Below are positions 15,480 through 32,233 of a stretch of DNA of 64,000 nucleotides, piece after piece (position 1 is the first letter of the stretch; every line of letters begins with the position of its first letter). The position numbers were made by a program, and so were the translations under genes. The notes beneath the pieces were generated by a model. That model did not search any database, was not told the DNA's origin, and was given only the letters and a program-made list of their open reading frames with translations. Origin of the DNA: Chloroflexota bacterium (GTDB taxonomy: Bacteria > Chloroflexota > Anaerolineae > Promineifilales > Promineifilaceae); NCBI GenBank assembly GCA_022616275.1, contig JAKEFB010000042.1, positions 62,001-126,000 on the forward strand, written 5' to 3'.

Positions 15480-16187
15480 ATGAAAACGATTGGCATTATT
15501 GGCGGGATTGGGCCGGAGTCAACGATTGAATATTATCGTTTGATCATCGCCCTATACCGCCAGCGGAAGCCGGATGGCAGCTATCCCCCGATCCTTATCA
15601 ACAGCATCAACCTGACGAGAATGCTGGATTTAATCGGCGAGCAGAGGTTGGAGGAGGTTACGGAGTATCTGCTGGGTGAGGTGGCGAAGCTGGCCCAGGC
15701 CGGGGCCGAGCTGGGCCTGCTGGCGGCCAATACGCCGCACATTGTTTTTGAGGATATTCAACGGCAGTCGCCGATTCCGCTGGTCAGCATTGTGGAAGCG
15801 ACGTGTCGGGCGGCGCAGGCACTGGGGCTGAAAAAAGTGGGGCTGTTTGGCGCGCGCTTCACGATGCAGGCGCGGTTTTACCCGGAGGTGTTCGCCAGGC
15901 AGGGGATCATGGTCGCCGTACCTGAGCCGGACGAGCAGGGGTACATTCATGACAAGTATATGAGCGAACTGGTCAATGGCGTCTTTCGAGCCGAAACGCG
16001 GGAAGGCTTGCTGGCGATAGTGGACCGGTTGGTAGCGCGGGAAGGGATTGAAGGCTTGATTTTAGGCGGAACGGAACTGCCCTTGATTCTGCGGGACGCG
16101 GCCGGCCGGCCGATCCCATTTCTGGATACGACCCGGATTCACGTGGAGGCCGTTATGGCGCAGGTGCTGGCGGAGGAAGGGGTTTGA
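15480..16187 (+). CDS. Aspartate/glutamate racemase-fold protein lacking both catalytic cysteines
   Basis: 235 residues with the family start MKTIGIIGGIGPESTIEYYR and family length. True racemases use two cysteines, one just before the NT of the first motif and one in LGCTE. Here these read LLAANTPH (Ala83) and LGGTELPL (Gly197), so neither thiol is present. Other conserved features (ILINSINL, ESTIEYY, ELPLIL) are kept, so the fold is probably intact, but cofactor-independent racemisation is not expected. It may bind an amino acid or act as a lyase or isomerase by other chemistry. The gene for an amidotransferase-like protein follows 97 bases downstream on the same strand. Confidence 0.88.
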   Translation: MKTIGIIGGIGPESTIEYYRLIIALYRQRKPDGSYPPILINSINLTRMLDLIGEQRLEEVTEYLLGEVAKLAQAGAELGLLAANTPHIVFEDIQRQSPIPLVSIVEATCRAAQALGLKKVGLFGARFTMQARFYPEVFARQGIMVAVPEPDEQGYIHDKYMSELVNGVFRAETREGLLAIVDRLVAREGIEGLILGGTELPLILRDAAGRPIPFLDTTRIHVEAVMAQVLAEEGV

Positions 16188-16284
16188 TGGCGGACGATGG
16201 GCAGCTTGCACCGAGGCTTCCGAAGTGACGGACGGCGGATGATAACTGGTCAGAGAGAAATTGTCCGTTACTGGGGGTTAACTA

Positions 16285-16989
16285 ATGGCTGAGCTTTCGA
16301 TTGGTCTGATTGGCGATTACGATGAAGCGAAACCGGCCCACGTGGCTATTCCCCAGGCCCTGGCGCTGTCGGCCCAGGCGCTGGGCTGCACGGTGGGGGC
16401 GACGTGGCTGCCGACGCCGCTGTTAGAAGCGGCTACCGCGACCCAACTGGCCGGCTACGACGGGCTGTGGTGTGTGCCGGGCAGCCCCTACGCCAGCATG
16501 GAGGGGGCGCTGAGAGCCATCCAATATGCCAGGGAGAGCGGCCGGCCGTTCCTGGGGACGTGCGGCGGCTGCCAGCACGCGCTGCTGGAATATGCCCGGC
16601 ACGTTTTGGGCTATCGCCAGGCGGACCACGCCGAGTCGAGCCCGGAGACGGAGTTTCCGCTGATTGCCCCGCTGGCGTGCGCGCTGGTCGAGACGACGGC
16701 CGGTATCTGGCTGCGGCCGGGGTCGCGGGTGGTTGAGATTTACGGGCAGGAGGAGATCGTCGAGGCGTACCACTGCAGCTATGGCTTCAATAACGACTAT
16801 CTCAGTTTGTTCGACCAGGGTAAGTTGCGCATTGCCGGGACAGATGCGGCCGGCGAGGTGCGCGTGGTGGAACTCGACTCGCATCCGTTCTTCGTGGCGA
16901 CGTTGTTTCAACCGGAACGGTCGGCTTTGGGCGGCCGGGTGCATCCGCTGATTACGGCTTACGTTCGGGCGGCGTTGGACGGGAAATAG
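16285..16989 (+). CDS. Stand-alone CTP-synthase-like class I glutamine amidotransferase domain
   Basis: 234 residues. It resembles only the C-terminal amidotransferase half of CTP synthase: IGLIGDYDEAKPAHVAIPQAL at the start, YDGLWCVPGSPYASMEG, and the nucleophile elbow GTCGGCQHAL (Cys93). There is no ammonia-using synthetase domain. The usual catalytic His of the HPE motif is Gln here (LFQPERSAL, Gln209-Pro-Glu211), so glutaminase activity by the normal triad is doubtful. It matches the group annotated as CTP synthase C-terminal region-related (seleno)protein, where the nucleophile is sometimes selenocysteine; here it is TGC. The biological role of that group is not established. Confidence 0.85.
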   Translation: MAELSIGLIGDYDEAKPAHVAIPQALALSAQALGCTVGATWLPTPLLEAATATQLAGYDGLWCVPGSPYASMEGALRAIQYARESGRPFLGTCGGCQHALLEYARHVLGYRQADHAESSPETEFPLIAPLACALVETTAGIWLRPGSRVVEIYGQEEIVEAYHCSYGFNNDYLSLFDQGKLRIAGTDAAGEVRVVELDSHPFFVATLFQPERSALGGRVHPLITAYVRAALDGK

Positions 16990-18411: not shown

Positions 18412-18516
18412 AAAATCATCGCGATTTGACAGGGGGAGCCGCCGTTGACATGGCCTCCGGTTGGCGTAGAATATGAATGCTGTGGTGGGGTAGCTGACAA
18501 GCCTTCCCTCCTAGGT
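18412..18516 (+). repeat. Promoter-bearing dispersed repeat, copy 1
   Basis: About 105 bases shared with 21140-21230 and 22327-22440. It carries TTGACA at 18445-18450 and TAGAAT at 18467-18472 with a 16-base spacer, a good sigma-70-type match. Here it points into the 3' end of the convergent gene 18580-20490, with no + strand gene downstream, so it probably acts as a mobile or orphan copy. It occupies most of the 302-base gap 18278-18579; nothing else is visible there. Confidence 0.7.
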
Positions 18517-18579
18517 ATTGGTGAATAGCAAAGGCCTGGCCCGGCTGCCTCGCCCGGAAAGGTGGAGAGGAGCCGCCTT

Positions 18580-20490
18580 TCAGTGGTTGGGATTTCTCAC
18601 ACCCTGCCCGGCCAGAATTAAGAAGCTGACCAACAGGCCGGTAATGCCGGCCATAAAGATTGACCCCAGCCACAAGTGGATGGTCCAGCCAATCCCTTGG
18701 GTCAACTGGAGCACAAGGAAATACAGCGCGTAAAACAGTACTGGCACGATGAAGGCGAACAAGGAGAAGCGCCCCCGCTGCCCGGCTGCTGGTTTTAGCT
18801 GCCGGAGCAAGATGTCGGCCATGAACCCCGCGCCCAGCATGGGCAGCGCCAAAAGGTATTGGTCATTAAGGACGCTCATCAGCAGTCCGTTGACTGTGAA
18901 CAGGAGCGTTAGCGCGCCGAACGGCAGCGTCCAAGCCCTGACCAGCATCAACACGGCCGCCGTCAACAAAGCCGATTGCAGCAAGATGCTGGCAATGGCG
19001 CTGGTTTGAGTATCGTAGAGATTCGGGCGCGCCGAATGCCCCTGGGCCGAGAACATAATCGTTTTACCGTCAGGCGACCATTTCGGAAAATTGATCTCCA
19101 GCGCATGGCTATGGGTCAGGTTGCGGACACTACTTCCATCGGCGTTCATGGCGTAAATGTCCGCCTGGCCGTCGCGCCAGGCAACAAAGGCAATCTGGCG
19201 GCCGTCCGGTGACCACGTGGGGCTGTACTCTTCGGCCGGCGTGTCCGTGAGTCGCTTTTGGCCATTGCCGTCAGCATTGATGACGTAGATGTCCAGGTCG
19301 TCGTCGCCGGGCCCGTTGAAGGCAATTTGCCGGCCGTCGGGCGACCACACCGCGCCCCAGTTGTGGCCGCTGTTCGCGGTCAGTTGCACCGGGTTACTGC
19401 CATCGGCGTTCATCACGTAGATCTGGTCAGTGCCGCCGGCGTTCGAGGTGTAGACGATCCGGGCGCCATCGGGTGACCAGGCCGGGCTAAAGGCAGGGGC
19501 CGCCACGCCGGCCAATGGTTGCAGGTTGCTGCCATCGGCGTTGATGGCGTAAAGCTGTTGCTGCTCTCCGGCCCCCGAGACAAAGGCGATGCGAGCGCTG
19601 TCCGGCGACCAGGCGGGCATGGATTCCTGGCCGGGTACATCGGTGAGCTGCTGCAAGCCGCTGCCGTCGGCGTTCATCAGATAAAGCGCACTTTCAGGCG
19701 GGTGGCCTTCTTTCACCTCGGCCCACAGAGGGCCTTCAGTTCGGGCGAAGACGATCTGGCGACCGTCGGGCGACCAGGCGCCATAGCGGGCAGACATTGT
19801 CGGGCTGGCTGTCAGCCGTGTCTGGCCGGTCCCATCGGCGTTCATCGCGTAGAGGTCACTGAATTGCCCCTGGTCAATGGCCGTTGCTGCTTGGGCCACA
19901 GGTTGGCTGATGGGGTGAACAAACTGGGTGAAAAATGTCAGAACGGATAAGACCAGTGTGGCGGAGAGCACCAGTGGGCCGAGCGCCGGCCAACCGCGCG
20001 CTTGGCCAGGGGACAGGTGGGAACACGCCGCCCGCATTGGCCCGCTTATCACCAGGACGCCACTCGTGGCCAGGAGAAGATGAGTCGGGCTGAGGAAAGC
20101 CTCCAGACTGACTTCGATGCCAAACAACGTGTGCCAGAGGAAGTCAAGCGCGCCCCCCAGCAGAAACAGAGCGGCGCCGGCCAGCGACAATAGATAGCCT
20201 TTCGGTAGGGCTTTCGGCCAGGCATGGCCTTTGGCCACGTTCCGGCTGTGGTTGAATCCAAGAAAGACGAACATGGCCAGGAGGCCGCTATAGAGGACGG
20301 CGTGCCAGGGAGTGAAAAAACTGTCGTCCACCTGGCCGTGGTTATGGGCCCAACCGTCGAGATAAACGCCGCCGAGCGCCCAGGCCGACAGTCCGGCCGC
20401 TACCCAGTCAAAGCGGACGTTGCCGGCCGGATACTCTTTTAGGTGGACCCGTTCGGCTTTGGACTTCACAGAATCTATCGTTGCGGTCAT
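18580..20490 (-). CDS. Membrane protein with TolB/PD40 beta-propeller between transmembrane bundles
   Basis: 636 residues in three parts. Residues ~25-200 contain about five hydrophobic helices (WALGGVYLDGWAHNHG, FFTPWHAVLYSGLLAMFVFLG). Residues ~205-475 hold seven PD40/TolB units of the pattern YAMNADGSG...RLT...WSPDGRQIAF. Residues ~490-630 hold four to five more helices. The propeller is predicted on the outer face, or in the lumen, of the cytoplasmic membrane. Repeat identity is high, so internal duplication is recent. The HxxxH-like positions in the first bundle (HNHGQVDD, PWHAVLY) could bind metal. No known complex partner is adjacent and no function is assigned. Confidence 0.85.
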   Translation of the reverse strand: MTATIDSVKSKAERVHLKEYPAGNVRFDWVAAGLSAWALGGVYLDGWAHNHGQVDDSFFTPWHAVLYSGLLAMFVFLGFNHSRNVAKGHAWPKALPKGYLLSLAGAALFLLGGALDFLWHTLFGIEVSLEAFLSPTHLLLATSGVLVISGPMRAACSHLSPGQARGWPALGPLVLSATLVLSVLTFFTQFVHPISQPVAQAATAIDQGQFSDLYAMNADGTGQTRLTASPTMSARYGAWSPDGRQIVFARTEGPLWAEVKEGHPPESALYLMNADGSGLQQLTDVPGQESMPAWSPDSARIAFVSGAGEQQQLYAINADGSNLQPLAGVAAPAFSPAWSPDGARIVYTSNAGGTDQIYVMNADGSNPVQLTANSGHNWGAVWSPDGRQIAFNGPGDDDLDIYVINADGNGQKRLTDTPAEEYSPTWSPDGRQIAFVAWRDGQADIYAMNADGSSVRNLTHSHALEINFPKWSPDGKTIMFSAQGHSARPNLYDTQTSAIASILLQSALLTAAVLMLVRAWTLPFGALTLLFTVNGLLMSVLNDQYLLALPMLGAGFMADILLRQLKPAAGQRGRFSLFAFIVPVLFYALYFLVLQLTQGIGWTIHLWLGSIFMAGITGLLVSFLILAGQGVRNPNH

Positions 20491-20656
20491 GGTCTATTCC
20501 TTTCTATTATTGTATTCGGCTTATGCGCTTACATTGAATACACCGCCGGCCGGCAACAGGTTCCACTATGTTCCTTTTCTACCAGGGTGGATTTTTTGGT
20601 GGCGCGGTATGGGGCCGAACTGTTGGGTCAGCACAAGAGGGGGAGGCTGAGCTTCA

Positions 20657-20697
20657 GGATGGGGCACTTTATGATTCAGGCGCGCAAGCCTTGGTAG
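20657..20697 (+). repeat. Dispersed repeat, copy 1 (block GGGGCACTTTAT...AAGCCTT)
   Basis: The block runs from ATGGGGCACTTTATGATTCA to GCGCGCAAGCCTT and recurs with two or three changes at 22469-22505. Both copies accompany a promoter-bearing repeat, so the pair may belong to one larger duplicated segment. Confidence 0.65.
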
Positions 20698-21143
20698 AGA
20701 GACCCAGGGCGATGGAGCAGAGGTGGCCGATAGTTCGGTTGATGGTTGAAGTGTTGGTTGAGGGAAGGAAAGTGGAATGGATAGTAGGGAGAGGTGAGGA
20801 GAGATAGAAGCAAGATGATCAAGATGCGCAAGGTGCGCATAAATATAAAAAAGTCATAGTACCCTGTGCATTGTGGGGGGTGAGGCGGGTTTAATGTGGC
20901 ATTAGGGGGGCAATAGGGGTACGAAAAGGGGGTTTTTGGTTGATTTTTGGGGGAATGGCGAGCGAGAAGGGGGTTCAAGATGCGCATGGGCCGGCCGATG
21001 ATCAGCTTGATGAACAGGTTGATGAGCGAGGAAGCTAAGCAAGGTGGAGCACCTTGCGGCTGAAGGAAGGTGATTACCAACCTCAAGATCACACCCGCGC
21101 CAGCGCCAATAGAAATGCCGCTCACCCTCATGGCGTTCCGCCG

Positions 21144-22213: not shown

Positions 22214-22654
22214 CGGCGGTGCAGCCCAAACGTGGCTGGCCCGGCTTGAACGCCCTCACCACTTATCACTTATCACTCATTACTCATCCATCACTCATTA
22301 CTGGCAGCGCCGGCCGGCGACAGGTGAAATCATCACGATCTGACAGGGAGAGCGGCCGTTGACATGACCTCTGGTTGGCGTAGAATATAAATCGTGTGGT
22401 GGGGCAGCTAACGAGCCTCCCCTCCAGGTGGTTACTCTCGTTCTGTTAGTTATCCGATAAAACAGCTTTGATGGGGCACTTTATCATTCAAGCGCGCAAG
22501 CCTTAGAGGGGATACAGATGGGCGGAGTTCGGCGGTTTTGCAAGTGGGGAAGTGCGGATTTGGCAGTAGGTTATTGATGAAAGTTCTGGTAATATAGAAG
22601 CGGTCTCAGTAATTGTGAAAAGCCAGTTTTGGTAGCTGATTTGTGGGGTGAACG
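22214..22654. other. 441-base region upstream of the type I R-M operon
   Basis: It contains the third copy of the promoter repeat (22327-22440), the second copy of the GGGGCACTTTAT block (22469-22505) and short direct repeats of ACTTATCACT/ACTCATTACT at 22260-22303. No open frame here looks coding. Confidence 0.6.
22359..22386 (+). promoter_or_regulatory. Sigma-70-type promoter in dispersed repeat, upstream of hsdM1
   Basis: TTGACA (22359-22364), 16-base spacer, TAGAAT (22381-22386). It lies 269 bases before the hsdM1 start and is the only strong promoter-like pair seen in that gap, so it may drive the restriction operon with a long leader. Confidence 0.55.
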
Positions 22655-24157
22655 TTGAGCCTTGAGCTGACCCTTTCAAAACTTGAATCGCACTTGTGGG
22701 AATCGGCCAACATTTTGCGTGGCCCGGTGGACGCGGCCGATTTCAAAACGTACATTTTCCCGCTGCTGTTTTTTAAGCGTATTTCTGACGTATACGACGA
22801 AGAGCTAGCCGCTGCTCTGGAAGAATCGGGCGGCGACCATGAATACGCCCTTTTCCCCGAACACCATCGTTTTCAAATTCCTGGAGGTTGCCACTGGCGT
22901 GATGTGCGCCAGCGGACGACCAACATTGGCCAGGCGTTGCAGTATGCTTTGCGTTGTGTAGAACAGGCTAACCCTGACGCTCTGTACGGCATCTTTGGCG
23001 ATGCGCAGTGGACGAACAAAGAGCGCCTGTCCGACGCTCTGCTGCGGGACCTGATTGAGCATTTTTCGCAACTAAGTCTGGCCAACAGCCTGGTGCAAAC
23101 GGACGTGATGGGGCAGGCGTATGAGTACCTGATCAAGAAGTTTGCCGACGCCACCAACAAGAAGGCCGGCGAATTTTATACGCCACGAAGCATCGTGCGG
23201 TTGATGGTTAATATCCTCGATCCCCAGGCCGGGGAAACGATATATGATCCGGCGTCAGGAACGGGCGGCATGTTGCTGGAAGCGGTCAACCACGTGCGGG
23301 AAGCGGGGCAGCGGGCCGAATTGATGTTGGGCAGGCTATATGGCCAGGAAAAGAACCTGACGACGTCGAGCATCGCCCGCATGAATTTGTTTTTGCATGG
23401 GGTCGAGGACTTTCACATTGTCCGGGGGGATACGTTGCGGGACCCGGCTTTCTTCGACGGCGACCGGCTGGCGACTTTTGATTGCGTCATTGCCAATCCG
23501 CCGTTCTCGCTGGAAAAATGGGGCCACAAACAGTGGGAGAGTGACCGCTTCGGCCGGAACTTTGCCGGATTACCCCCAGCGAGTAGCGGCGATTACGCCT
23601 GGGTGCAGCACATGATTCAATCTATGGCCGGGCCGCACGGCCGGATGGCGGTTGTCTTGCCACACGGGGTTCTATTCCGCATGGGCGCGGAGGGGAAAAT
23701 CCGGCAAAAGTTGTTGGAGAAAGATTTGCTGGAAGCAGTCATTGGGTTGGGTCCGAACCTGTTTTACGGCACCGGGCTGGCCGCTTGCATCCTGGTCTTC
23801 CGGCTGCGCAAAGCGCCGGGGCGGCAGGGTAAGGTGCTCTTCGTTGACGCCTCAGAGCTGTACCGGAAGGGGCGTAATCAAAACACGCTGGAAGCGGAAC
23901 ACGGGGAGCAAATCTACGCCTGGTATCGGGCTTACGAAGAGGTCGAGGGGCGCGCTCACGTGGCCACGCTAGACGAAATTGCCGGGAATGAGTGGAACCT
24001 CAATATTCCGCGCTACGTGGAGCCGGTCATTGAAGAAGAGATTATTACCGTTGCCGAAGCGGTTGCTAACTTGAAGACGGCTTTAGGTGAAGCGTTTGCC
24101 GCAGAAGAAAGGTTGAAAAGCCTACTGCGCGAGGCTGACTTGCTACCGGAGGAGTAA
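22655..24157 (+). CDS. hsdM: Type I restriction-modification DNA methyltransferase subunit M (first copy)
   Basis: 500 residues, starting with TTG after GGGGTG. An HsdM N-domain (residues ~5-140, FKTYIFPLLFFKRISDVYDEE) precedes the N6-adenine methyltransferase domain. The SAM motif is DPASGTGGMLLEA and the catalytic motif is IANPPFSLEKW (NPPF). It methylates adenine in a bipartite site set by the HsdS subunit. A second, clearly related but distinct hsdM lies at 25904, separated by one gene. Both keep intact motifs, so this is not simple decay. The next gene starts 4 bases after the stop. Confidence 0.94.
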   Translation: MSLELTLSKLESHLWESANILRGPVDAADFKTYIFPLLFFKRISDVYDEELAAALEESGGDHEYALFPEHHRFQIPGGCHWRDVRQRTTNIGQALQYALRCVEQANPDALYGIFGDAQWTNKERLSDALLRDLIEHFSQLSLANSLVQTDVMGQAYEYLIKKFADATNKKAGEFYTPRSIVRLMVNILDPQAGETIYDPASGTGGMLLEAVNHVREAGQRAELMLGRLYGQEKNLTTSSIARMNLFLHGVEDFHIVRGDTLRDPAFFDGDRLATFDCVIANPPFSLEKWGHKQWESDRFGRNFAGLPPASSGDYAWVQHMIQSMAGPHGRMAVVLPHGVLFRMGAEGKIRQKLLEKDLLEAVIGLGPNLFYGTGLAACILVFRLRKAPGRQGKVLFVDASELYRKGRNQNTLEAEHGEQIYAWYRAYEEVEGRAHVATLDEIAGNEWNLNIPRYVEPVIEEEIITVAEAVANLKTALGEAFAAEERLKSLLREADLLPEE

Positions 24158-24161
24158 CGCA

Positions 24162-25907
24162 ATGCCTTATATTGTCCAGGAACTGATCAAAGATAATCCG
24201 ACCCTGATGACGGCCTCTTTACAAGAGCCAATACAGAGCGCGCTTGCGAAAATGATAGAGCACGATTTTAGCCAGTTGCCGGTTGTGGATGATGACAACC
24301 GGCCGGTAGGCATGATTACGTCCGAGTCTATTCTGCGGGCATTGAACAATTTCGGCGTAGGATTAGACAAATTGCGGGTTGAACACGCCAGAGTAAAGCC
24401 GGATGAGTTTCGTCATGACGCTGATCTGTTTGAACTACTCAACAGGTTACAGGATACCTACGCTGTCCTGATTGTGGACGGCGAGCGTCGTTTGATTGGC
24501 ATTGTCACCAATTACGATACGGCAGAATATTTCCGGCGAAGAGCCGAAGATATGATGCTCGTTGAAGATATAGAGACAATGCTCAAAGATTATATTCAGG
24601 CAGCCTATGCTACGGACGATGGTGGGATTGATGAAGCCAGGTTAGACCGGGCTGTTCAGAAAATTACCGACAGCGGCCAGGCGCACCGTAAGAAGTTCGA
24701 GAAGGCTTTAAGCCATTATCTGGCGCTAGAGAGCGGGGGCGGCAAGGTTAAACTGAACGACGCTTCGCTGCAAGAGGTTTTCGAGCGTCATTTTGACGAT
24801 AAGCGGCCGGCCCAAAAATTCTCGGAACTAACTCTGTATGAATACATCGAACTCTTGCTCGATGAAAGTAGTTGGACGCGCTACCGGCCCATATTTAACC
24901 TGGACCGTTCGGCTATCCGAACCCTACTTGATAAGGTGCGTGATACACGCAACATCCTGGCTCACTTTCGACGTGAGATCACTCTAGCTCAACACGATCA
25001 TCTTCGTTTTGCAGCCGATTGGCTGGCTCACTACCAAGATGCCATAATGGACCTTTTTACGCCAAGAGCTACCAGTCCGGCTATGGCTGTTCGTGAACCG
25101 CAAGCTACTTATCAGGCAGGCTCGTCACAGGCGGCTAGCGAATTGCCTGTTATCGCGCCATTAGAGGACGAAGTTGATCCCCGCGAAAGCCGTTACGCGC
25201 CGTTGGCTATCTGGCTACAAAATCAACCACCAAACGAGTCCCAGGTTACACTGACTTTTGCCGACATTGAGAGGATTATTGAGAACAAGTTGCCTGGATC
25301 GGCGTACGAACACCGCTCCTGGTGGGCGAATGACAGCTTTAGCCATGTGCAGTCGCAGCAGTGGTTAGAGGTAGACTGGCGGGTGGCTTTAGTCAATATG
25401 AGTAACCACACCGTTCACTTCGCTCGTATTCAGGAGCGGCAAAAGGCATACATTGATTTTTTTAGCGAATTGGTCAGCGAGCTAAAGCAGCAGCCAGGAT
25501 TTGACCAATTGCAAGTGCGGCCGGATGGTGTGAACTGGTACTGGATTAGAAGTATCCGAGTGAAGAAGAAGAGAATCGGGACTTTTACTTATTCATTTGG
25601 CCGCGGAAATATTTTCCGTGTAGAGCTGTATATTGATAGCGATGACGGCGAGCTTAACAAAACGCTCTTTGACGCTTTAAACGGACGCAAAGCCGAAATT
25701 GAAGAGGCAGTGGGCTATACATTGTTGTGGCAACGACTTAACCACCGACGTGCGTCGCGGATTGCCATTATTTTTGAAGAATACAGTATCACTGACGACC
25801 TAAAAAGGTTAGCGCAACTCCGCCAACAGGCCGTACCTGCTATGGTGAAATTTATCGAAGTTATGCGGCCGCATATAGAATCTGAGGCCAAGAATATCCT
25901 GCCATGA
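24162..25907 (+). CDS. CBS-pair / HEPN-like / DUF7662 / DUF4268 multidomain protein inside the R-M operon
   Basis: 581 residues in four visible parts. Two CBS units (~1-65 and ~75-130; FSQLPVVDDDNRPVGMIT, YAVLIVDGERRLIGIVT) are expected to bind adenosine nucleotides. Residues ~215-300 look like a Swt1-type HEPN domain with the RNase-like motif R263-N-x3-H268 (RNILAH). Residues ~345-425 match DUF7662 (TLTFADIERII, WWANDSFSHVQSQQWL), and residues ~430-575 match DUF4268, often found near nucleases. It starts 4 bases after hsdM1 and its stop overlaps the ATG of hsdM2. Codon use is AT-richer than its neighbours. A nucleotide-sensing effector or regulator is inferred; nothing is proven. Confidence 0.82.
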   Translation: MPYIVQELIKDNPTLMTASLQEPIQSALAKMIEHDFSQLPVVDDDNRPVGMITSESILRALNNFGVGLDKLRVEHARVKPDEFRHDADLFELLNRLQDTYAVLIVDGERRLIGIVTNYDTAEYFRRRAEDMMLVEDIETMLKDYIQAAYATDDGGIDEARLDRAVQKITDSGQAHRKKFEKALSHYLALESGGGKVKLNDASLQEVFERHFDDKRPAQKFSELTLYEYIELLLDESSWTRYRPIFNLDRSAIRTLLDKVRDTRNILAHFRREITLAQHDHLRFAADWLAHYQDAIMDLFTPRATSPAMAVREPQATYQAGSSQAASELPVIAPLEDEVDPRESRYAPLAIWLQNQPPNESQVTLTFADIERIIENKLPGSAYEHRSWWANDSFSHVQSQQWLEVDWRVALVNMSNHTVHFARIQERQKAYIDFFSELVSELKQQPGFDQLQVRPDGVNWYWIRSIRVKKKRIGTFTYSFGRGNIFRVELYIDSDDGELNKTLFDALNGRKAEIEEAVGYTLLWQRLNHRRASRIAIIFEEYSITDDLKRLAQLRQQAVPAMVKFIEVMRPHIESEAKNILP

Positions 25908-27427
25908 GCCACATATCCCAACAACAGCTCGAATCTTACCTCTGGGGCGCGGCGACGTTGTTGCGTGGTTTCATTGACGCCGGGGATTATAAGCAGTACA
26001 TCTTTCCTTTGCTGTTCTTCAAGCGCATCTGCGACGTGTATGACGAGGAGTACCAGGCGGCGCTGGCGGAGAGCGGCGGCGACCTGGAATACGCGGCTTT
26101 TGCCGAGAACCACCGTTTCCAGATACCGGCCGGGGCGCACTGGCAAGACGTGCGGGCGGTGGCGACCAACGCCGGCCGGGCCATCCAGAAGGCGATGCGC
26201 CAGATAGAAACGGCTAACCCTGACTTGCTGTTTGGCATTTTTGGCGACGCCCAGTGGACGAACAAGGAGCGCCTGTCCGACGCGACGTTGCGCGACCTGA
26301 TCGAGCATTTCTCGACCCTGACGCTGTCTATTGGCAACGTGCCCGAAGATGAGCTGGGGGTGGCCTACGAGTTTCTGATCAAGAAGTTTGCCGACGACAG
26401 CGGCCACACGGCGGCCGAGTTTTATACGAATCGCACGGTCGTCCACCTGATGACGCTGTTGCTGGAACCGCGGCCGGGCGAGGCCATTTATGATCCGACC
26501 TGTGGCAGCGGCGGCATGTTGCTTTCCTGCGTGGCGGAATTGAAGCGACAGGGCCAGGAATGGCGGACGCTGAAGCTGTATGGCCAGGAACGGAACCTGA
26601 TGACGTCTTCGATTGCCCGGATGAACCTGTTCTTGCACGGCATTGAGGATTTTCAAATCGTGCGCGGGGATACGTTAACCGCCCCAGCGTTTTTGCAGGG
26701 GGACAAATTGCGCCAGTTTGACGTGGCCCTGGCCAATCCGCCGTATTCTATCAAGCAGTGGGACCGCAGCGCCTGGCAGAGCGACCGGTTCGGCCGCAAT
26801 TTCCTGGGCACGCCGCCACAGGGCCGGGCCGATTACGCCTTTTTCCAGCACATTCTGGCCAGCCTGAAACCGGGAACGGGGCGGTGCGCCATTCTCTTTC
26901 CGCACGGGGTGTTGTTCCGGGACGAGGAAGCGGAGATGCGGCGCAGGCTGGTGGAGGAGGATTGCGTGGAGTGTGTGTTAGGGCTGGGGCCGAACCTGTT
27001 TTATAACTCGCCGATGGAGGCGTGTATTGTCATTTGCCGGACGAACAAGGCGGCCGGGAGGCGAAATAAGATCCTCTTTATCAACGCCGTTAACGAGGTG
27101 ACGCGGGAGCGGGCGCAAAGTTTCCTGGAGGAGGAGCATATTGAGCGAATCGTGGCGGCTTATCAAGGCGGCGCGGACGTTGAAAATTTGATGCGGGTGG
27201 TAGGTCTGGAGGAGGTCCGGGAGAATGGATATAACTTGAGCATTGCCCGGTATATGCGGCCCTCACTAGAAATAAACCTTACTGAAAACAGTGACACAAA
27301 ATCTCTGGACAAAATTATTGAAGATTGGAAGACGAGTTCTCAGCTATTGCAATCGGAAATGGTCGGATTGGTCAAAACATTGGAAATTATTTCAGGCACG
27401 GTATCCATTGAGGAGTCCGAGGAATGA
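25904..27427 (+). CDS. hsdM: Type I restriction-modification DNA methyltransferase subunit M (second copy)
   Basis: 507 residues. It has the same architecture as the first copy, with SAM motif DPTCGSGGMLLSC and catalytic motif LANPPYSIKQW (NPPY). The two share blocks such as IFGDAQWTNKERLSDA and diverge elsewhere, as expected for old paralogues or subunits from different systems. The ATG overlaps the stop of the preceding gene (ATGA), and its own stop overlaps the next ATG in the same way, so translation is coupled through three genes. The final ~60 residues are AT-rich and differ from the first copy. Either HsdM could pair with the single HsdS. Confidence 0.94.
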   Translation: MSHISQQQLESYLWGAATLLRGFIDAGDYKQYIFPLLFFKRICDVYDEEYQAALAESGGDLEYAAFAENHRFQIPAGAHWQDVRAVATNAGRAIQKAMRQIETANPDLLFGIFGDAQWTNKERLSDATLRDLIEHFSTLTLSIGNVPEDELGVAYEFLIKKFADDSGHTAAEFYTNRTVVHLMTLLLEPRPGEAIYDPTCGSGGMLLSCVAELKRQGQEWRTLKLYGQERNLMTSSIARMNLFLHGIEDFQIVRGDTLTAPAFLQGDKLRQFDVALANPPYSIKQWDRSAWQSDRFGRNFLGTPPQGRADYAFFQHILASLKPGTGRCAILFPHGVLFRDEEAEMRRRLVEEDCVECVLGLGPNLFYNSPMEACIVICRTNKAAGRRNKILFINAVNEVTRERAQSFLEEEHIERIVAAYQGGADVENLMRVVGLEEVRENGYNLSIARYMRPSLEINLTENSDTKSLDKIIEDWKTSSQLLQSEMVGLVKTLEIISGTVSIEESEE

Positions 27428-28068
27428 GCAGAAAGGACAACAAATCAATCGAAATAATCGGTGTAGTCATCGCTGCATTCACATGTATTGCAGCTTATTT
27501 AGCAATACCGCCTGACAGATTGGAGTTTTTACGCAAAGATTCGCCTGATGCCAATCAGACGGCTAATCCTGTTACAGAAGCACAACCTGATACATTTGGT
27601 GATCTGACACCATCACCTGAATCTACGGCAGCGCCACCAATGCCTACGCAAGTACAGTCTATATCTCTTGACCCATTTACCGTTCCAGCGAATACTAGTG
27701 AAGGTATAAGGTTTCCAGCCGAGCTAACCGGGTGGTATACATTTCGCTATGTAGATGGGGCATACTCTACTTATCCAGTTGATCAAATTCCTCCAGGAAC
27801 AGCAACCTGGTTGACAGGCATAACTGTTTTTAAGAATAAGCCGGTGCAGTGGGATGGAACAGTTGTGGGCAGGAATTTTGATGAGGCCGTGAATGATTAC
27901 AACTATCAATTCAGTGAAACAGAGGCCGAGGCAAGAGCACAGGGAAGTAGTTTTCGTATTTTTCTTGAGCAGGGCGATTATATTACCCTGGTGGCCATAG
28001 ACCACCAATCATCCTATGATGACAACCCAGGAGCAATAATATTTGAAGTCTTCTTTTTACCGGAGTGA
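27424..28068 (+). CDS. Membrane-anchored extracytoplasmic protein of unknown function within the R-M operon
   Basis: 214 residues. One hydrophobic segment at ~10-27 (IIGVVIAAFTCIAAYLAI) follows a short basic start, giving an N-in anchor. A Pro/Thr/Glu-rich linker (~45-85) leads to a beta-rich domain (~85-214) with aromatic residues (GWYTFRYVDGAYSTYP, SFRIFLEQGDYITLV). No family is recognised. Its ATG overlaps the hsdM2 stop, and hsdS starts 12 bases after its own stop. The low GC content resembles the CBS-HEPN gene. A surface or periplasm-facing protein is not a known subunit of type I restriction enzymes. Confidence 0.78.
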   Translation: MSRKDNKSIEIIGVVIAAFTCIAAYLAIPPDRLEFLRKDSPDANQTANPVTEAQPDTFGDLTPSPESTAAPPMPTQVQSISLDPFTVPANTSEGIRFPAELTGWYTFRYVDGAYSTYPVDQIPPGTATWLTGITVFKNKPVQWDGTVVGRNFDEAVNDYNYQFSETEAEARAQGSSFRIFLEQGDYITLVAIDHQSSYDDNPGAIIFEVFFLPE

Positions 28069-28080
28069 TAAAGAACGAAC

Positions 28081-29235
28081 ATGAGTTGGCCAACCGTCAA
28101 ACTTGGTGATTTGGTACGAAATGTGCGCGAAACAAGCCGTGACCCTTTGGCTGATGGGCTGGAGCGGTATGTGGGGCTGGAGCATATTGAGCCTGAGAAT
28201 TTGCATGTGAAGCGCTGGGGGTGGGTGGCGGAGGGCACGAGTTTTAGCCAGGTGTTTCGCCAGGGGCAGGTGTTGTTCGGCAAGCGGCGGGCTTACCAGC
28301 GCAAGGTGGCGGTGGCGGAGTGGGACGGGTTGTGTTCGAGCGACATCCTGGTGTTTGAGCCGAAAGATGATCGCCTGCTGCCGGAACTATTACCGTTCAT
28401 TGTCCAGAGTGACGGCTTTTTTAACCACGCGCTGGGAACCAGTTCGGGGTCGTTGTCGCCGCGCACGAAATGGCGCGACCTGGCGCAGTACGAGTTTGCC
28501 CTGCCGCCGCTGGACGAGCAACGGCGTATTGCCGAAATTCTGTGGGCGGCCAATGAGGCAATCGAGCGTTACATATTGGTTCAAAACGAAATTGTTAAAG
28601 CCTCTCGCGTAGCCTGGAAGGACGCTGTTGATCAAAGTGAGTGGCCTAAGGTTCCTCTCGGACAAGTTGCAAGGGTTAACAATGGGAGCACACCGAGCAA
28701 AGACATAAAACGTTATTGGAATAATGGCACTATTCCCTGGCTCCCAACCGAGAAGGTGCATGAACGCATTATTTACAGAGCCGATGAGTTTATCACCAAG
28801 AGCGCGCTGGAAGAAACTTCAATTAAGCTCTTGCCATCAGATTCTGTACTAATTGCAATGATTGGGCAGGGTAAAACACGCGGCTCCGTTGCCTATCTCT
28901 CAATTGAATCCTGTATAAATCAGAATTTCGCATGTGCGGTTCCTAACAAAGAGATTGATAGTTGGTTCCTGTTTTATACTTTGGACAATTCCTATGAGAA
29001 GCTTCGGACTTTCTCACAAGGCGCTGTCCCAGCACTGAATTGCCCTATCTTGCGTTCCATCCCTGTTCGGTTACCGCCGCTAGAACAGCAACACACTTTA
29101 GTCGCCTTATTCCACCGATTCGAAAAGCAAGTACAGGATGTTCAAGAACATATTGAAACCTTAAGTAACTTGAAAAAGTCTCTCACGGCGTGCCTTCTAG
29201 GCAATCCATCAAAAGAGATGGAATCTCATGTTTAA
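28081..29235 (+). CDS. hsdS: Type I restriction-modification specificity subunit S
   Basis: 384 residues with two target-recognition domains, each followed by a conserved helix: half 1 ends in LPPLDEQRRIAEILWAANEAIERY (~140-165) and half 2 in LPPLEQQHTLVALFHRFEKQV (~335-355). TRD2 has the typical VPLGQVARVNNGSTPSKD start. The subunit reads the two halves of the DNA site and bridges HsdM and HsdR. TRD1 is GC-rich and TRD2 is AT-rich, consistent with separate origins and domain shuffling. Its last 8 bases overlap the start of hsdR. Confidence 0.93.
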   Translation: MSWPTVKLGDLVRNVRETSRDPLADGLERYVGLEHIEPENLHVKRWGWVAEGTSFSQVFRQGQVLFGKRRAYQRKVAVAEWDGLCSSDILVFEPKDDRLLPELLPFIVQSDGFFNHALGTSSGSLSPRTKWRDLAQYEFALPPLDEQRRIAEILWAANEAIERYILVQNEIVKASRVAWKDAVDQSEWPKVPLGQVARVNNGSTPSKDIKRYWNNGTIPWLPTEKVHERIIYRADEFITKSALEETSIKLLPSDSVLIAMIGQGKTRGSVAYLSIESCINQNFACAVPNKEIDSWFLFYTLDNSYEKLRTFSQGAVPALNCPILRSIPVRLPPLEQQHTLVALFHRFEKQVQDVQEHIETLSNLKKSLTACLLGNPSKEMESHV

Positions 29236-32233
29236 CGAACTGAACAGCGTCGAGAACTTCATCCGGGATGTGCTGTGCGGCAAGCAAGCCGGCCGGGTAG
29301 TCAGGGAAACCGGTGCGCCTTACACGGCGGCGGAGGCGGCGTTGGCGGCGGCCGGCCTGGGCTGGCGTTACGTGCCGGCCGACCGCTTGCCTCGCCGGCC
29401 GCACGAGGTGTTGGTCGAGGCTTACCTGCGCCAGGCGCTGATTCGCCTGAACCCGGAGATTGCGGCCCGGCCGGAGCGGGCCGACGAGGTGATTTACAAG
29501 CTGCGGGCTATTTTGTTGACGGTTGGCAGCGCCGGCCTGGTGGGGGCCAACGAGGCGTTTACCGAATGGATGCGCGGCGAAAAGACGATGCCCTTCGGTC
29601 CAGGTAACGAGCATACGCCAGTGCGGCTGATTGATTTTGACGACCTGGGCAACAATGATTTTGCCGTGACAACCCAATACGTCCTCCAGCCGTCGCCGGG
29701 CATCCACCGCCGGCTGGACCTGGTGCTGCTGATGAACGGCCTGCCGCTGGTTATCGGCGAGGCCAAAACGCCGACCCGGCCGGCGATCAGTTGGGTGGAC
29801 GGTGCGGCCCAAATCCAGGACGATTACGAGGCCAACGTGCCCGGCGTTTTTGTCCCCAACGTCTTTTCTTTCGCCACCGAGGGCAAGGAGTTTTATTACG
29901 GCTCAATCCAGCTACCGCTGGAGAAGTGGTCGCCGTGGCGGGCCGGAGGGCAAGGAGCAGGGGAGCAGGGAGGCAGAGGAGCAGGGGTGAGTGGGTTGAG
30001 GGAGGTGGAGCGGGCGGCGCGGGGGTTGTTGCGGCCGGAGATGGTGCTGGACATGCTGCAATATTTTACGCTCTTTGCCACCGACAAGAAGCACCGGAAG
30101 ATCAAGGTGATCGGCCGCTACCAACAAGTGCAGGCGGCGAACCAGATCGTGGAGCGGGTGACGGCCGGCACCCCGCGCAAGGGGCTGATCTGGCATTTCC
30201 AGGGGTCGGGCAAGTCGCTGCTGATGCTTTTTGCGGCCAACAAGCTGCGGCTGCACCCGGCGCTGAAGAACCCGACGGTGGTCGTGGTGGTGGACCGGGT
30301 AGACCTGGACACCCAGATTACGGCGACGTTTAACGCGGCCGACGTGCCCAACCTGGTCCCGGCCGAGAGCCGCGAGGAATTGCAAAGGCTGCTGGCCCAG
30401 GACGTGCGCAAGGTCATTATTACGACGATTCACAAGTTCGCCGAAGCAGGCGGGGTCCTCAACAGGCGAGAGAACATCATCGTCATGGTGGACGAAGCCC
30501 ACCGCACCCAGGAGGGGGACCTCGGCCGGCAGATGCGCCAGGCGTTGCCCAACGCCTTCCTTTTTGGCCTGACCGGCACGCCGATCAACAAGCGAGACCG
30601 CAACACCTTTTGGGCCTTTGGGGCGGAGGAGGACAGCGGCGGCTACCTGAGCCGGTATTCGTTTGAAGAGTCTATCCGCGACAAGGCCACCTTGCCGCTA
30701 CATTTCGAGGCCCGGCTGGTGGAATTGCGGGTGGAGCAGGAGGCGATTGACGAAGCGTACGCCAACATTACCGGCCACCTGTCGGAAAGCGACCAGGAAA
30801 ACCTGGCCAGAATGGCGGCTAAAATGGCCGTGCTGGTCAAAGCGCCGGAGCGGGTCCAGGCGATTGCGGCCGACATCGCCAACCATTTTAGGGACCGGGT
30901 AGAGCCGCAAGGCTTCAAAGGGCAAATGGTGGCCTTTGACCGGGAAGCGTGCGTGTTGTACAAGCAGGCCCTGGACCAGTTCCTGCCGCCGGAAGCCAGC
31001 ACCGTCGTCATGACGACCGCCCAGGGCGACGATAGAGCGTGGAAGCAGTACGACCGGAACAAAGAGGAGGAAGAACGGCTGTTGGATCGCTTCCGCGATC
31101 CGGCCGATCCGTTGAAATTGCTCATCGTCACCGCCAAACTGCTGACCGGCTTTGACGCGCCCATTTTGCAGGTCATGTACCTGGACAAGCCGATGAAGGA
31201 GCACAATCTGTTGCAGGCCATTTGCCGGACCAACCGGCCGTATCCGGGCAAGACGCACGGGCTGATCGTGGACTATATTGGCGTGTTTGACGACGTGAGC
31301 CAGGCGCTGGACTTTGACGAAAAATCGGTCCAGCAGGTGATTTCTAACCTGGAGGCGCTGGCCGGCCAGTTGCCAGGAGCAGTGGCCGCCTGCCTGGCCT
31401 ATTTCCCCGGCGTGGACCGGACGGCCAGTGGTTACGAGGGCTTGCTGGCAGCCCAAGAGTGCTTGCCGGACAACGACACACGGGACGCTTTTGCCGCCGA
31501 TTACTCGGTGTTGTTGCGGTTGTGGGAGGCGTTGTCGCCCCGGCCGCTCTTGAACCAGTACCGGGACGATTACAAATGGCTGACGCAGGTACACGAATCG
31601 GTCCGGCCGCCCAGCGGCCAGGGCAAGCTGCTGTGGCACGCCTTAGGCGGCAAGACGCTGGAGTTGATCCACGAAAATATTCACGTGGCTGCGATGCGGG
31701 ACGACCTGGAAACGCTGGTCATGGATGCCGAGTTCCTGGAGGAGGTGGTCAAAGCGCCCGACCCGGCCGCCAAGGCGCAGGAAATTGAGTTCAAAATCAG
31801 CCGGCGGCTGCAAAAGCATCGCGACGACCCGCGCTTTGTGAAATTGGGCCAGCGGCTGGAGGAGCTAAAAGAGCGGCTGGAAGCCGGCATTCTGAACAGC
31901 GTGGAATACCTGAAGCTGTTGCTGGACCTGGCGCGGGACATTGTGCGGGCGGAAAAGAACGTTGACCCGGAGGAGGAGCGGCGCACGGCCAAGGCGGCGC
32001 TGACCGAGTTATTCGAGGAGACTCGCAATCACGAAACGCCGGTTATCGTCGAGCGGGTGGTCAACGACATTGACGAGATTGTGCGTATCGTCCGCTTTCC
32101 CGGCTGGCAGGATACGAACGCGGGAGAGCGGGAAGTGAAGAAGGCGCTGCGGCGGACGTTGTTGAAGTATCAGCTCCACAAGGACCAGGACTTGTTTGAC
32201 CGGGCTTACGAGTACATCCGGCAATACTACTGA
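29228..32233 (+). CDS. hsdR: Type I restriction endonuclease subunit R (nuclease-translocase)
   Basis: 1001 residues. The nuclease core is visible as an Asp in RRLDLVLL and VIGEAKTP (E-x-K, ~178). The SF2 helicase motifs follow: Walker A FQGSGKS (~327-333), DEAH in MVDEAHRTQEG (~422), GLTGTPI and the C-terminal motif ICRTNRP. HsdR translocates DNA and cuts at a distance when the site is unmethylated. Residues ~238-257 are a Gly/Ala-rich insert (GGQGAGEQGGRGAG) encoded by a GGAGCAGGG-type intergenic repeat kept in frame. The last ~45 codons plus 22 downstream bases recur at 39862, and part of them at 33361. Confidence 0.95.
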   Translation: MFNELNSVENFIRDVLCGKQAGRVVRETGAPYTAAEAALAAAGLGWRYVPADRLPRRPHEVLVEAYLRQALIRLNPEIAARPERADEVIYKLRAILLTVGSAGLVGANEAFTEWMRGEKTMPFGPGNEHTPVRLIDFDDLGNNDFAVTTQYVLQPSPGIHRRLDLVLLMNGLPLVIGEAKTPTRPAISWVDGAAQIQDDYEANVPGVFVPNVFSFATEGKEFYYGSIQLPLEKWSPWRAGGQGAGEQGGRGAGVSGLREVERAARGLLRPEMVLDMLQYFTLFATDKKHRKIKVIGRYQQVQAANQIVERVTAGTPRKGLIWHFQGSGKSLLMLFAANKLRLHPALKNPTVVVVVDRVDLDTQITATFNAADVPNLVPAESREELQRLLAQDVRKVIITTIHKFAEAGGVLNRRENIIVMVDEAHRTQEGDLGRQMRQALPNAFLFGLTGTPINKRDRNTFWAFGAEEDSGGYLSRYSFEESIRDKATLPLHFEARLVELRVEQEAIDEAYANITGHLSESDQENLARMAAKMAVLVKAPERVQAIAADIANHFRDRVEPQGFKGQMVAFDREACVLYKQALDQFLPPEASTVVMTTAQGDDRAWKQYDRNKEEEERLLDRFRDPADPLKLLIVTAKLLTGFDAPILQVMYLDKPMKEHNLLQAICRTNRPYPGKTHGLIVDYIGVFDDVSQALDFDEKSVQQVISNLEALAGQLPGAVAACLAYFPGVDRTASGYEGLLAAQECLPDNDTRDAFAADYSVLLRLWEALSPRPLLNQYRDDYKWLTQVHESVRPPSGQGKLLWHALGGKTLELIHENIHVAAMRDDLETLVMDAEFLEEVVKAPDPAAKAQEIEFKISRRLQKHRDDPRFVKLGQRLEELKERLEAGILNSVEYLKLLLDLARDIVRAEKNVDPEEERRTAKAALTELFEETRNHETPVIVERVVNDIDEIVRIVRFPGWQDTNAGEREVKKALRRTLLKYQLHKDQDLFDRAYEYIRQYY

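Follow-up and report, generated by a model that had tools for sequence, protein, structure and literature searches.

Two hsdM genes and two genes of other kinds, arranged with hsdS and hsdR in one type I restriction-modification (R-M) operon, raise the question of whether such a locus is a new composite defence system or a known one that has taken up further genes. The operon lies in a 64,000-nucleotide stretch of a Chloroflexota genome (contig JAKEFB010000042.1, positions 62,001 to 126,000), hereafter called the window. An earlier note, made from the letters of the window, had regarded the paired hsdM genes as an oddity, and the whole as a composite defence in which restriction is backed by a sensing or effector module. 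The six genes have been analyzed one by one, and compared with related loci in genomes of the same class.

Organization of the operon

Six ORFs run on the forward strand from 22655 to 32233, in the order hsdM1, gene 2, hsdM2, gene 4, hsdS and hsdR, with junctions measuring, 5' to 3', +4, −4, −4, +12 and −8 nt (Table 1). ORFs and Pfam families found at this place bear out the gene set and order of the earlier note, and the six co-oriented, nearly overlapping genes its account of overlaps and short gaps. Genes 1 and 3 match HsdM_N and N6_Mtase in Pfam, and GEAK, GSGKS and DEAH are present in the hsdR translation. The GC content is 56.5% in hsdM1, 49.1% in gene 2, 57.3% in hsdM2, 44.3% in gene 4, 50.5% in hsdS and 62.0% in hsdR. 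No tRNA genes were found in the window. A promoter scan marked a site with 11/12 matches at 22359–22386; the window holds 12 promoter-like sites (5.6 expected) and 12 terminator-like sites (12.0 expected), and no inference was drawn from either result.

Table 1. Genes and protein regions of the operon, in window positions
Feature	Position	Strand	Description
hsdM1	22655..24157	+	M1-type, predicted m6A methylase subunit, 500 aa, TTG start; AGEF and NPPF
gene 2	24162..25907	+	CBS-CBS-HEPN-DUF7662-DUF4268, 581 aa; predicted nucleotide-gated RNase, putative second-line effector
gene 2, CBS pair	24162..24620	+	residues ~1–153; Pfam CBS twice; NF053863 stretch 5–153; T116-x-x-D119
gene 2, HEPN region	24744..25061	+	residues ~195–300; R-N-x-x-x-H invariant in 25/25 aligned
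gene 2, DUF7662	25197..25424	+	residues 346–421; PF24698, 40.3 bits
gene 2, DUF4268	25452..25868	+	residues 431–569; PF14088, 53.8 bits; PADLOC PDC-S11 models
hsdM2	25904..27427	+	M2-type, predicted m4C methylase subunit, 507 aa; AAEF and NPPY
gene 4	27424..28068	+	predicted membrane-anchored protein, 214 aa; putative window-specific cargo, M2/S slot; hydrophobic segment ~9–29
hsdS	28081..29235	+	384 aa; two Methylase_S stretches, Pfam PF01420
hsdR	29228..32233	+	nuclease and motor subunit, 1001 aa; HSDR_N, SWI2_SNF2, T1R_D3-like (Pfam)

The paired hsdM genes

The products of hsdM1 and hsdM2 are 56% identical over 456 aa. The best PDB match of the former is 7vru_A, the M1 subunit of PacII (609 bits, versus 472 for PacII M2), that of the latter 7vru_B, the M2 subunit (627 bits, versus 468 for PacII M1). 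In the non-canonical type I enzymes described in PMC9613975, M1 writes m6A and M2 writes m4C, and the subunits are marked by AGEF/NPPF and AAEF/NPPY signatures, respectively. The same signatures reside in genes 1 and 3 of the window, both of which had been noted before to keep their motifs. Two different M genes, S and R are found in one locus, with the PacII signatures and with PacII subunits as closest counterparts. Because of the signatures and of the best PDB matches of both M, the backbone is, as judged by sequence, an m6A/m4C (PacII-type) type I R-M operon of M1-M2-S-R order, and a further member of a known subtype. The pairing of hsdM genes is not the oddity it had been taken for, and the idea that it is something new was rejected, the subtype having already been published (PMC9613975). 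PacII and the window locus share two unlike M subunits (AGEF/NPPF, AAEF/NPPY) and an S subunit with two recognition domains; the window differs in that gene 2 separates M1 from M2 and gene 4 separates M2 from S, and its m6A/m4C specificities are predicted.

M1 was searched in 397 genomes of the class of the window (taken as Anaerolineae), which yielded 22 matches at E 1e-130. This sample and that of the gene 2 profile search reported below, also of 397 class genomes, are assumed to be the same draw; in each genome, scoring was limited to the 3 best candidates. In 20 of the 397 genomes an M2 gene comes after M1 in the same orientation. A contig end cuts M2 in G577 and G539, and M1 is divided into two ORFs in G434. 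The loci L051 and L057, found via gene 2, bring the number of M1 loci up to 22; counts given out of 20 do not include them. Bare M1-M2-S-R operons were identified also in two plasmids outside the phylum, from Streptomyces hirsutus and Exiguobacterium aurantiacum.

M2-type genes stand alone in two genomes. In G530 (L163, 7393–13886) the order is M2 (NPPY)-S-PDC-S13-R with no adjoining M1, and one NPPY subunit may serve both strands. In G595 (L144, 14506–15602) an NPPY-type hsdM without adjoining M1 lies in a locus cut by the contig end.

AGEF and NPPF were found in the M1 of all 22 M1 loci, spread over two ORFs in G434. Among 24 M2-type genes, 17 carry AAEF and seven AQEF, and NPPY is conserved in 23, the remaining one being a fragment that ends upstream of the motif. 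M1 and M2 rows split with an SH-aLRT of 98 in an HsdM tree of 50 rows, which omits the G434 M1 (two ORFs) and the G577 M2 (fragment), and in which three long rows were trimmed to the M part. The main groups of the M1 and M2 halves, judged by eye, correspond for the most part, as they should if M1 and M2 move as a pair.

Cargo at the gene junctions

Of the 20 loci, 11 have little or nothing at the M1/M2 junction (overlap to 1 nt in ten, 168 nt in G711), and nine have it filled. The junction harbors gene 2 in the window, G695 (L149) and G722 (L153), so that gene 2 is absent from the slot in 17/20, and other genes in six loci. The latter are a DUF3644 gene corresponding to PDC-S19, with an RNRIAH motif, in G621, DUF433 in G651, DUF433 and DUF5615 in G580, and genes with no family, or with a sub-threshold HNH match only, in G564, G504 and G689. 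The M2/S slot is occupied by gene 4 in the window, AAA_21 ATPases in G545 and G614, an HTH gene with IrrE in G580, a GmrSD gene in L051, and unknowns in some others. Behind M2 lie a GmrSD_N gene, at the contig end, in G711 and a transposase-like gene in G722. HamA and a DEAD-box helicase reside in the S/R slot of G504, PDC-S13 in that of the M2-only locus G530. Small slot ORFs may in part be non-genes, as those of 153 aa in L145 and 89 aa in L146. The Pfam scan covered the cargo other than ORFs of 203 and 973 aa in L162, 280 aa in L163 (PADLOC only), 111 and 82 aa in L057, and 730 aa in L156.

Some loci deserve separate mention. G504 (L147, 2071–19900) has each of its three junctions filled with cargo, and downstream of hsdR a gene 2 homologue that lacks DUF4268. 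Related proteins of 206–217 aa, 56–77% identical and with no Pfam match, are encoded in the M2/S slot of G683, G591 and G689 (L152 5287–5940, L154 12795–13439, L155 6641–7261). In L051, two short ORFs that keep just the first ~41 hsdS codons, 80% identical to each other, lie among the cargo genes upstream of the full hsdS (16125–16388, 18454–18603, 19665–20828), and are possible traces of successive cargo/hsdS replacements.

Gene 4 finds no family match in Pfam, PADLOC or NCBIfam. Its single hydrophobic segment is followed by a Thr/Pro-rich linker, and the C-terminal region resembles parts of other proteins of the class, one of which has a lipoprotein-like start. A single-sequence structure model reached a mean pLDDT of 51 and was set aside. 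No match was detected among the ORFs of 23 other annotated loci (blastp E 1e-3), and remote relatives occur in 5 of 298 class genomes at 1e-3, that of the window included. On these grounds gene 4 was rejected as a conserved member of the operon; it is best read, from its distribution, as incidental cargo specific to the window, probably left by a single chance insertion. Since gene 4 lies in the M2/S slot of the window, and two lipoprotein-like ORFs in that of G651, envelope-type genes do land in this slot.

Domains and motifs of gene 2

Pfam assigns to gene 2 two CBS stretches, DUF7662 and DUF4268, and gives no HEPN match at E up to 1. The HEPN motif R-N-x-x-x-H (R263, N264, H268) is identical in all 25 aligned gene 2 homologues, and R, N and H are kept also by the G695 and G722 copies, which are outside the 25-row alignment. 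Across the same homologues D119 of the second CBS never varies, and position 116 holds T in 24 of them and S in one; T-x-x-D binds ribose in other CBS proteins. Residues R486, E488, W523 and R533 of the DUF4268 part are likewise invariant in the alignment.

Gene 2 joins CBS and HEPN in one protein with an R-x4-H motif, as does DS-11 (PMC13092281; NCBIfam model NF053863), and scores 112.1 bits against this model, below the 260-bit cut-off. It differs from DS-11, described in PMC13092281 as a one-protein system, in having DUF7662 and DUF4268 in addition and in residing inside an R-M operon. According to the same source, DS-11 loses anti-phage protection on mutation of a CBS residue predicted to contact adenine (Y157) or of HEPN catalytic residues, and an unidentified adenine derivative is proposed as the CBS ligand. 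HEPN-CBS fusions are mentioned also in PMC3710099. Gene 2 resembles the PADLOC candidate PDC-S11 in the DUF4268 part only: the best of four models matches residues 420–577 with 65.8 bits over model positions 162–310 of 314, the rest being uncovered.

In PDB profile searches the HEPN part found no strong HEPN relative, the best match being a ribosomal protein (E 0.008), with CRISPR-associated proteins and one antiviral protein only at E 0.14–0.67. The DUF4268 and DUF7662 parts found no solved relative by sequence, and we know of no binding function for either domain. CBS proteins top the list obtained with the whole-protein profile (best 60 of 119 matches). Compared by hhalign with a single cargo protein, that of L156, the HEPN alignment gave a weak match (probability 1.3).

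Two Ktedonobacter genomes encode a DUF7662-DUF4268-like part with a different N-terminal part in place of CBS-HEPN (L069 9242–10744, L070 9278–10777), so the tail looks like a reusable module. In Thermococcales (L081, L082, L091) a DUF7662-like stretch was found in an unexpected place, inside large proteins with a signal-like or PEGA-like N-terminal start.

Distribution of gene 2 homologues

A contig scan with five gene 2 homologues returned 76 loci, and neighbourhoods were annotated for the first 37 (L038–L074). Gene 2 lies between M1 and M2 in two of these, L051 and L057, and clear hsd genes, identified by blastp to the window proteins within the fetched region, are near it in five (L046, L051, L053, L057, L062). 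Weak methylase matches in L052, L055 and L064 were assigned by Pfam to other DNA methylases, and no hsd match was seen in the other 29 loci, several of which are on short contigs. Because most homologues are found outside R-M operons, including the closest relative L038 (57%), which lies beside a GIY-YIG gene, gene 2 must be able to work alone.

In the 397 class genomes a gene 2 profile detected 15 genomes at 1e-30, nine of them above 300 bits. The M1/M2 pair is present in 4 of these 9 and in 4 of the 15; the association yields a Fisher p of 5e-4, with the 300-bit line chosen after seeing the list. Of the four genomes, that of the window, G695 and G722 have gene 2 at the M1/M2 junction, and G504 has it, lacking DUF4268, immediately behind hsdR. 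Five loci in all (window, G695, G722, L051, L057) feature gene 2 between M1 and M2, with junctions of −4 to +16 nt. The neighbourhood check proposed in the earlier note finds that M1-gene 2-M2-...-S-R order recurs in L057, L051 and G695, and in G722 up to M2, behind which come cargo and the end of the contig; gene 4 is absent from the 23 other loci.

The genome of the window carries a second gene 2 copy (L027), 30% identical and 87 nt behind the hsdS of a different type I locus. A phage carrier was considered and rejected, as no match was found in phage records and no relative in viral contigs (31 pattern matches). Parts of gene 2 are matched by 55 plasmid records, one of which (Anabaena sp. 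90) extends over 80% or more of the gene. The gene 2 homologue of Ktedonobacter sp. SOSP1-85 (L031 8799–10561, the same place as L068 9980–11742) is probably broken, because its sequence is divided between two overlapping ORFs that do not share a frame.

Probable separate arrivals at the M1/M2 junction

The five slot copies fall in three places of a gene 2 tree of 33 rows. The window groups with L038, beside G695 and G722; L057 with L054 (long branch) and L050; L051 belongs to a weakly resolved group of Chloroflexota rows. The tree omits L031/L068 (two overlapping ORFs), L059, L060, L063, L065, L069–L073, L197 and the weaker L075–L113. The record of L054 (JAHHHY010000002.1) is titled Pleurocapsa minor; a contig of equal length (769,663; G441:C5) belongs, by genome search, to the class of the window, so that the record may be mislabelled. 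A single clade of the five slot copies, a set defined by gene order before the tree was made, is rejected with a p-AU of 8.3e-7. In the HsdM tree the window is near G443, with an empty slot, and G564, with other cargo; L057 is next to G572, and the M1 of L051 next to G577, both with empty slots. Since the single clade is rejected, and backbone relatives have empty or otherwise filled slots, gene 2 probably reached the M1/M2 junction more than once. Each arrival may have been a fresh insertion or the replacement of one homologue by another, both of which fit. The GC content of gene 2 is lower than that of both flanking hsdM genes in all five slot loci.

The earlier note had proposed that homologues of genes 2 and 4 rarely or never co-occurring with hsdM pairs, or a one-off insertion, would speak against a composite system. 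This is what was found for gene 4, because it has no match in the other loci and remote relatives in 5/298 genomes. For gene 2 the outcome is mixed: 2 of the 37 annotated scan loci hold it between an hsdM pair, while the tree-separated copies argue against a single genome-specific insertion. Of the composite defence itself there remains an R-M operon with one added sensing or effector gene, gene 2, in a recurrent order; gene 4 is not conserved.

Possible roles of gene 2

An even chance is given to the reading that a second-line effector is embedded in the PacII-type m6A/m4C type I R-M operon. Gene 2 would be translated together with the methylase subunits, and would sense through its CBS pair an adenine nucleotide or derivative whose level shifts on infection; binding would release the HEPN domain, which would cut RNA, and the infected cell would stop phage production once restriction had failed or been blocked. 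The DUF7662-DUF4268 tail is assumed to recognize DNA, or to dock on the R-M complex. That gene 2 is a nucleotide-gated RNase acting after restriction we infer from its motifs and from the DS-11 and PrrC literature. The sequences show unbroken motifs, close-set junctions and, on separate branches of the tree, gene 2 at one and the same junction, and these argue for an embedded effector, as do the partial match to DS-11 and the second copy behind the hsdS of another type I locus. Against it, most homologues are outside R-M operons, 17/20 M1/M2 loci lack gene 2 in the slot, the HEPN identity rests on a short motif with no strong HEPN relative in the PDB, and the match to the DS-11 model is below cut-off.

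The principle has precedents. R-M-linked HEPN proteins have been proposed as second-line RNases kept silent by R-M, PrrC being cited (PMC3710099), and PrrC is silenced by its linked type I enzyme (PMC2610378). PrrC/EcoprrI and gene 2 have in common a HEPN-type RNase gene, recognized in gene 2 by motif and position, in a type I operon, and a proposed second-line role. PrrC has an N-terminal ABC-ATPase domain, in place of which gene 2 has a CBS pair, and silencing by R-M has been shown for PrrC only. A stronger version, in which the R-M complex physically silences gene 2 as EcoprrI does PrrC, appears unlikely; direct R-M control is only a possibility because most relatives of gene 2 reside outside R-M operons. 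Defence genes between the hsd genes of one operon are known also from TgvAB (PMC11411939) and from DarTG2 in RRDM (PMC12255303). These loci differ from the window in gene families and in having a single hsdM; DarTG2 lies between hsdS and hsdR (PMC12255303), and the position of TgvAB is likened to that of RloF between hsdR and hsdS (PMC11411939).

Next to the embedded effector, and with about one chance in three, comes the view that the junctions simply tolerate insertions, and that gene 2 is an independent one-gene defence which gains from the operon a promoter and joint transfer, with no functional coupling. The variety of cargo (PDC-S19, DUF433/DUF5615, AAA_21, GmrSD, HamA with a helicase, HTH-IrrE, transposase-like genes and unknowns), the location of most homologues elsewhere and the lower GC content in 5/5 slot loci all fit such a passenger. 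Yet the same four-domain gene at one exact junction in separate branches, and the vicinity of the other copy in the window's genome to a type I locus, exceed what a random passenger needs, which is not proof.

Rather improbable is a modification-dependent defence, in which DUF7662-DUF4268 would read modified or foreign DNA and activate the HEPN domain, so that operon and gene 2 would cover unmodified and modified phages, as has been proposed for TgvAB. DUF4268 is found together with the GmrSD domains known from type IV enzymes (PMC4619093). L051 and L158 have GmrSD-type genes among their cargo, and genes of this type adjoin gene 2 in L052. Against this, neither DUF has a solved relative by sequence or, to our knowledge, a binding function. 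Moreover, the dependence of DS-11 on its CBS domain (PMC13092281) suggests a nucleotide signal. An assembly error or single chance insertion is very improbable: the genome is split into 309 contigs, its contamination is estimated at 5.5%, and gene 4 fits a single insertion, but gene 2 homologues lie at the same junction in four other genomes, and the window is on a 222 kb contig with open frames throughout.

The embedded effector remains the preferred reading of gene 2. No description of a CBS-HEPN-DUF4268 gene between two M genes was found in the open-licence part of PubMed Central. A preprint by Payne et al. (2024), outside that scope, reportedly deals with embedded defences and may hold one. 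The earlier note knew of no published system with this set, which agrees with our search, relatives of its parts or of its principle being DS-11, PrrC/EcoprrI, TgvAB and RRDM. In sum, the second hsdM is explained, gene 4 drops out, and gene 2 remains, by sequence comparison, a candidate for a recurrent embedded defence.

A bolder view, which we hold at low confidence, sees the M1/M2 junction as a guard slot for RNase effectors, silenced by R-M and freed by an adenine-nucleotide signal when a phage blocks restriction. On this view the slot would have taken in CBS-HEPN-DUF7662-DUF4268 repeatedly and the DUF3644 gene with RNRIAH once. If true, the PrrC principle would have been invented independently, here with a CBS pair as the sensor. 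The CBS ligand of DS-11 is left open in PMC13092281. Ocr and ArdA are stated to inhibit PacII (PMC9613975), and would allow a direct test of whether blocked restriction triggers the predicted RNase. Probably separate arrivals link a putative CBS-HEPN defence gene to a single precise junction in a type I subtype that was described only recently, and this makes gene 2 a concrete candidate for a second-line effector within an R-M operon.
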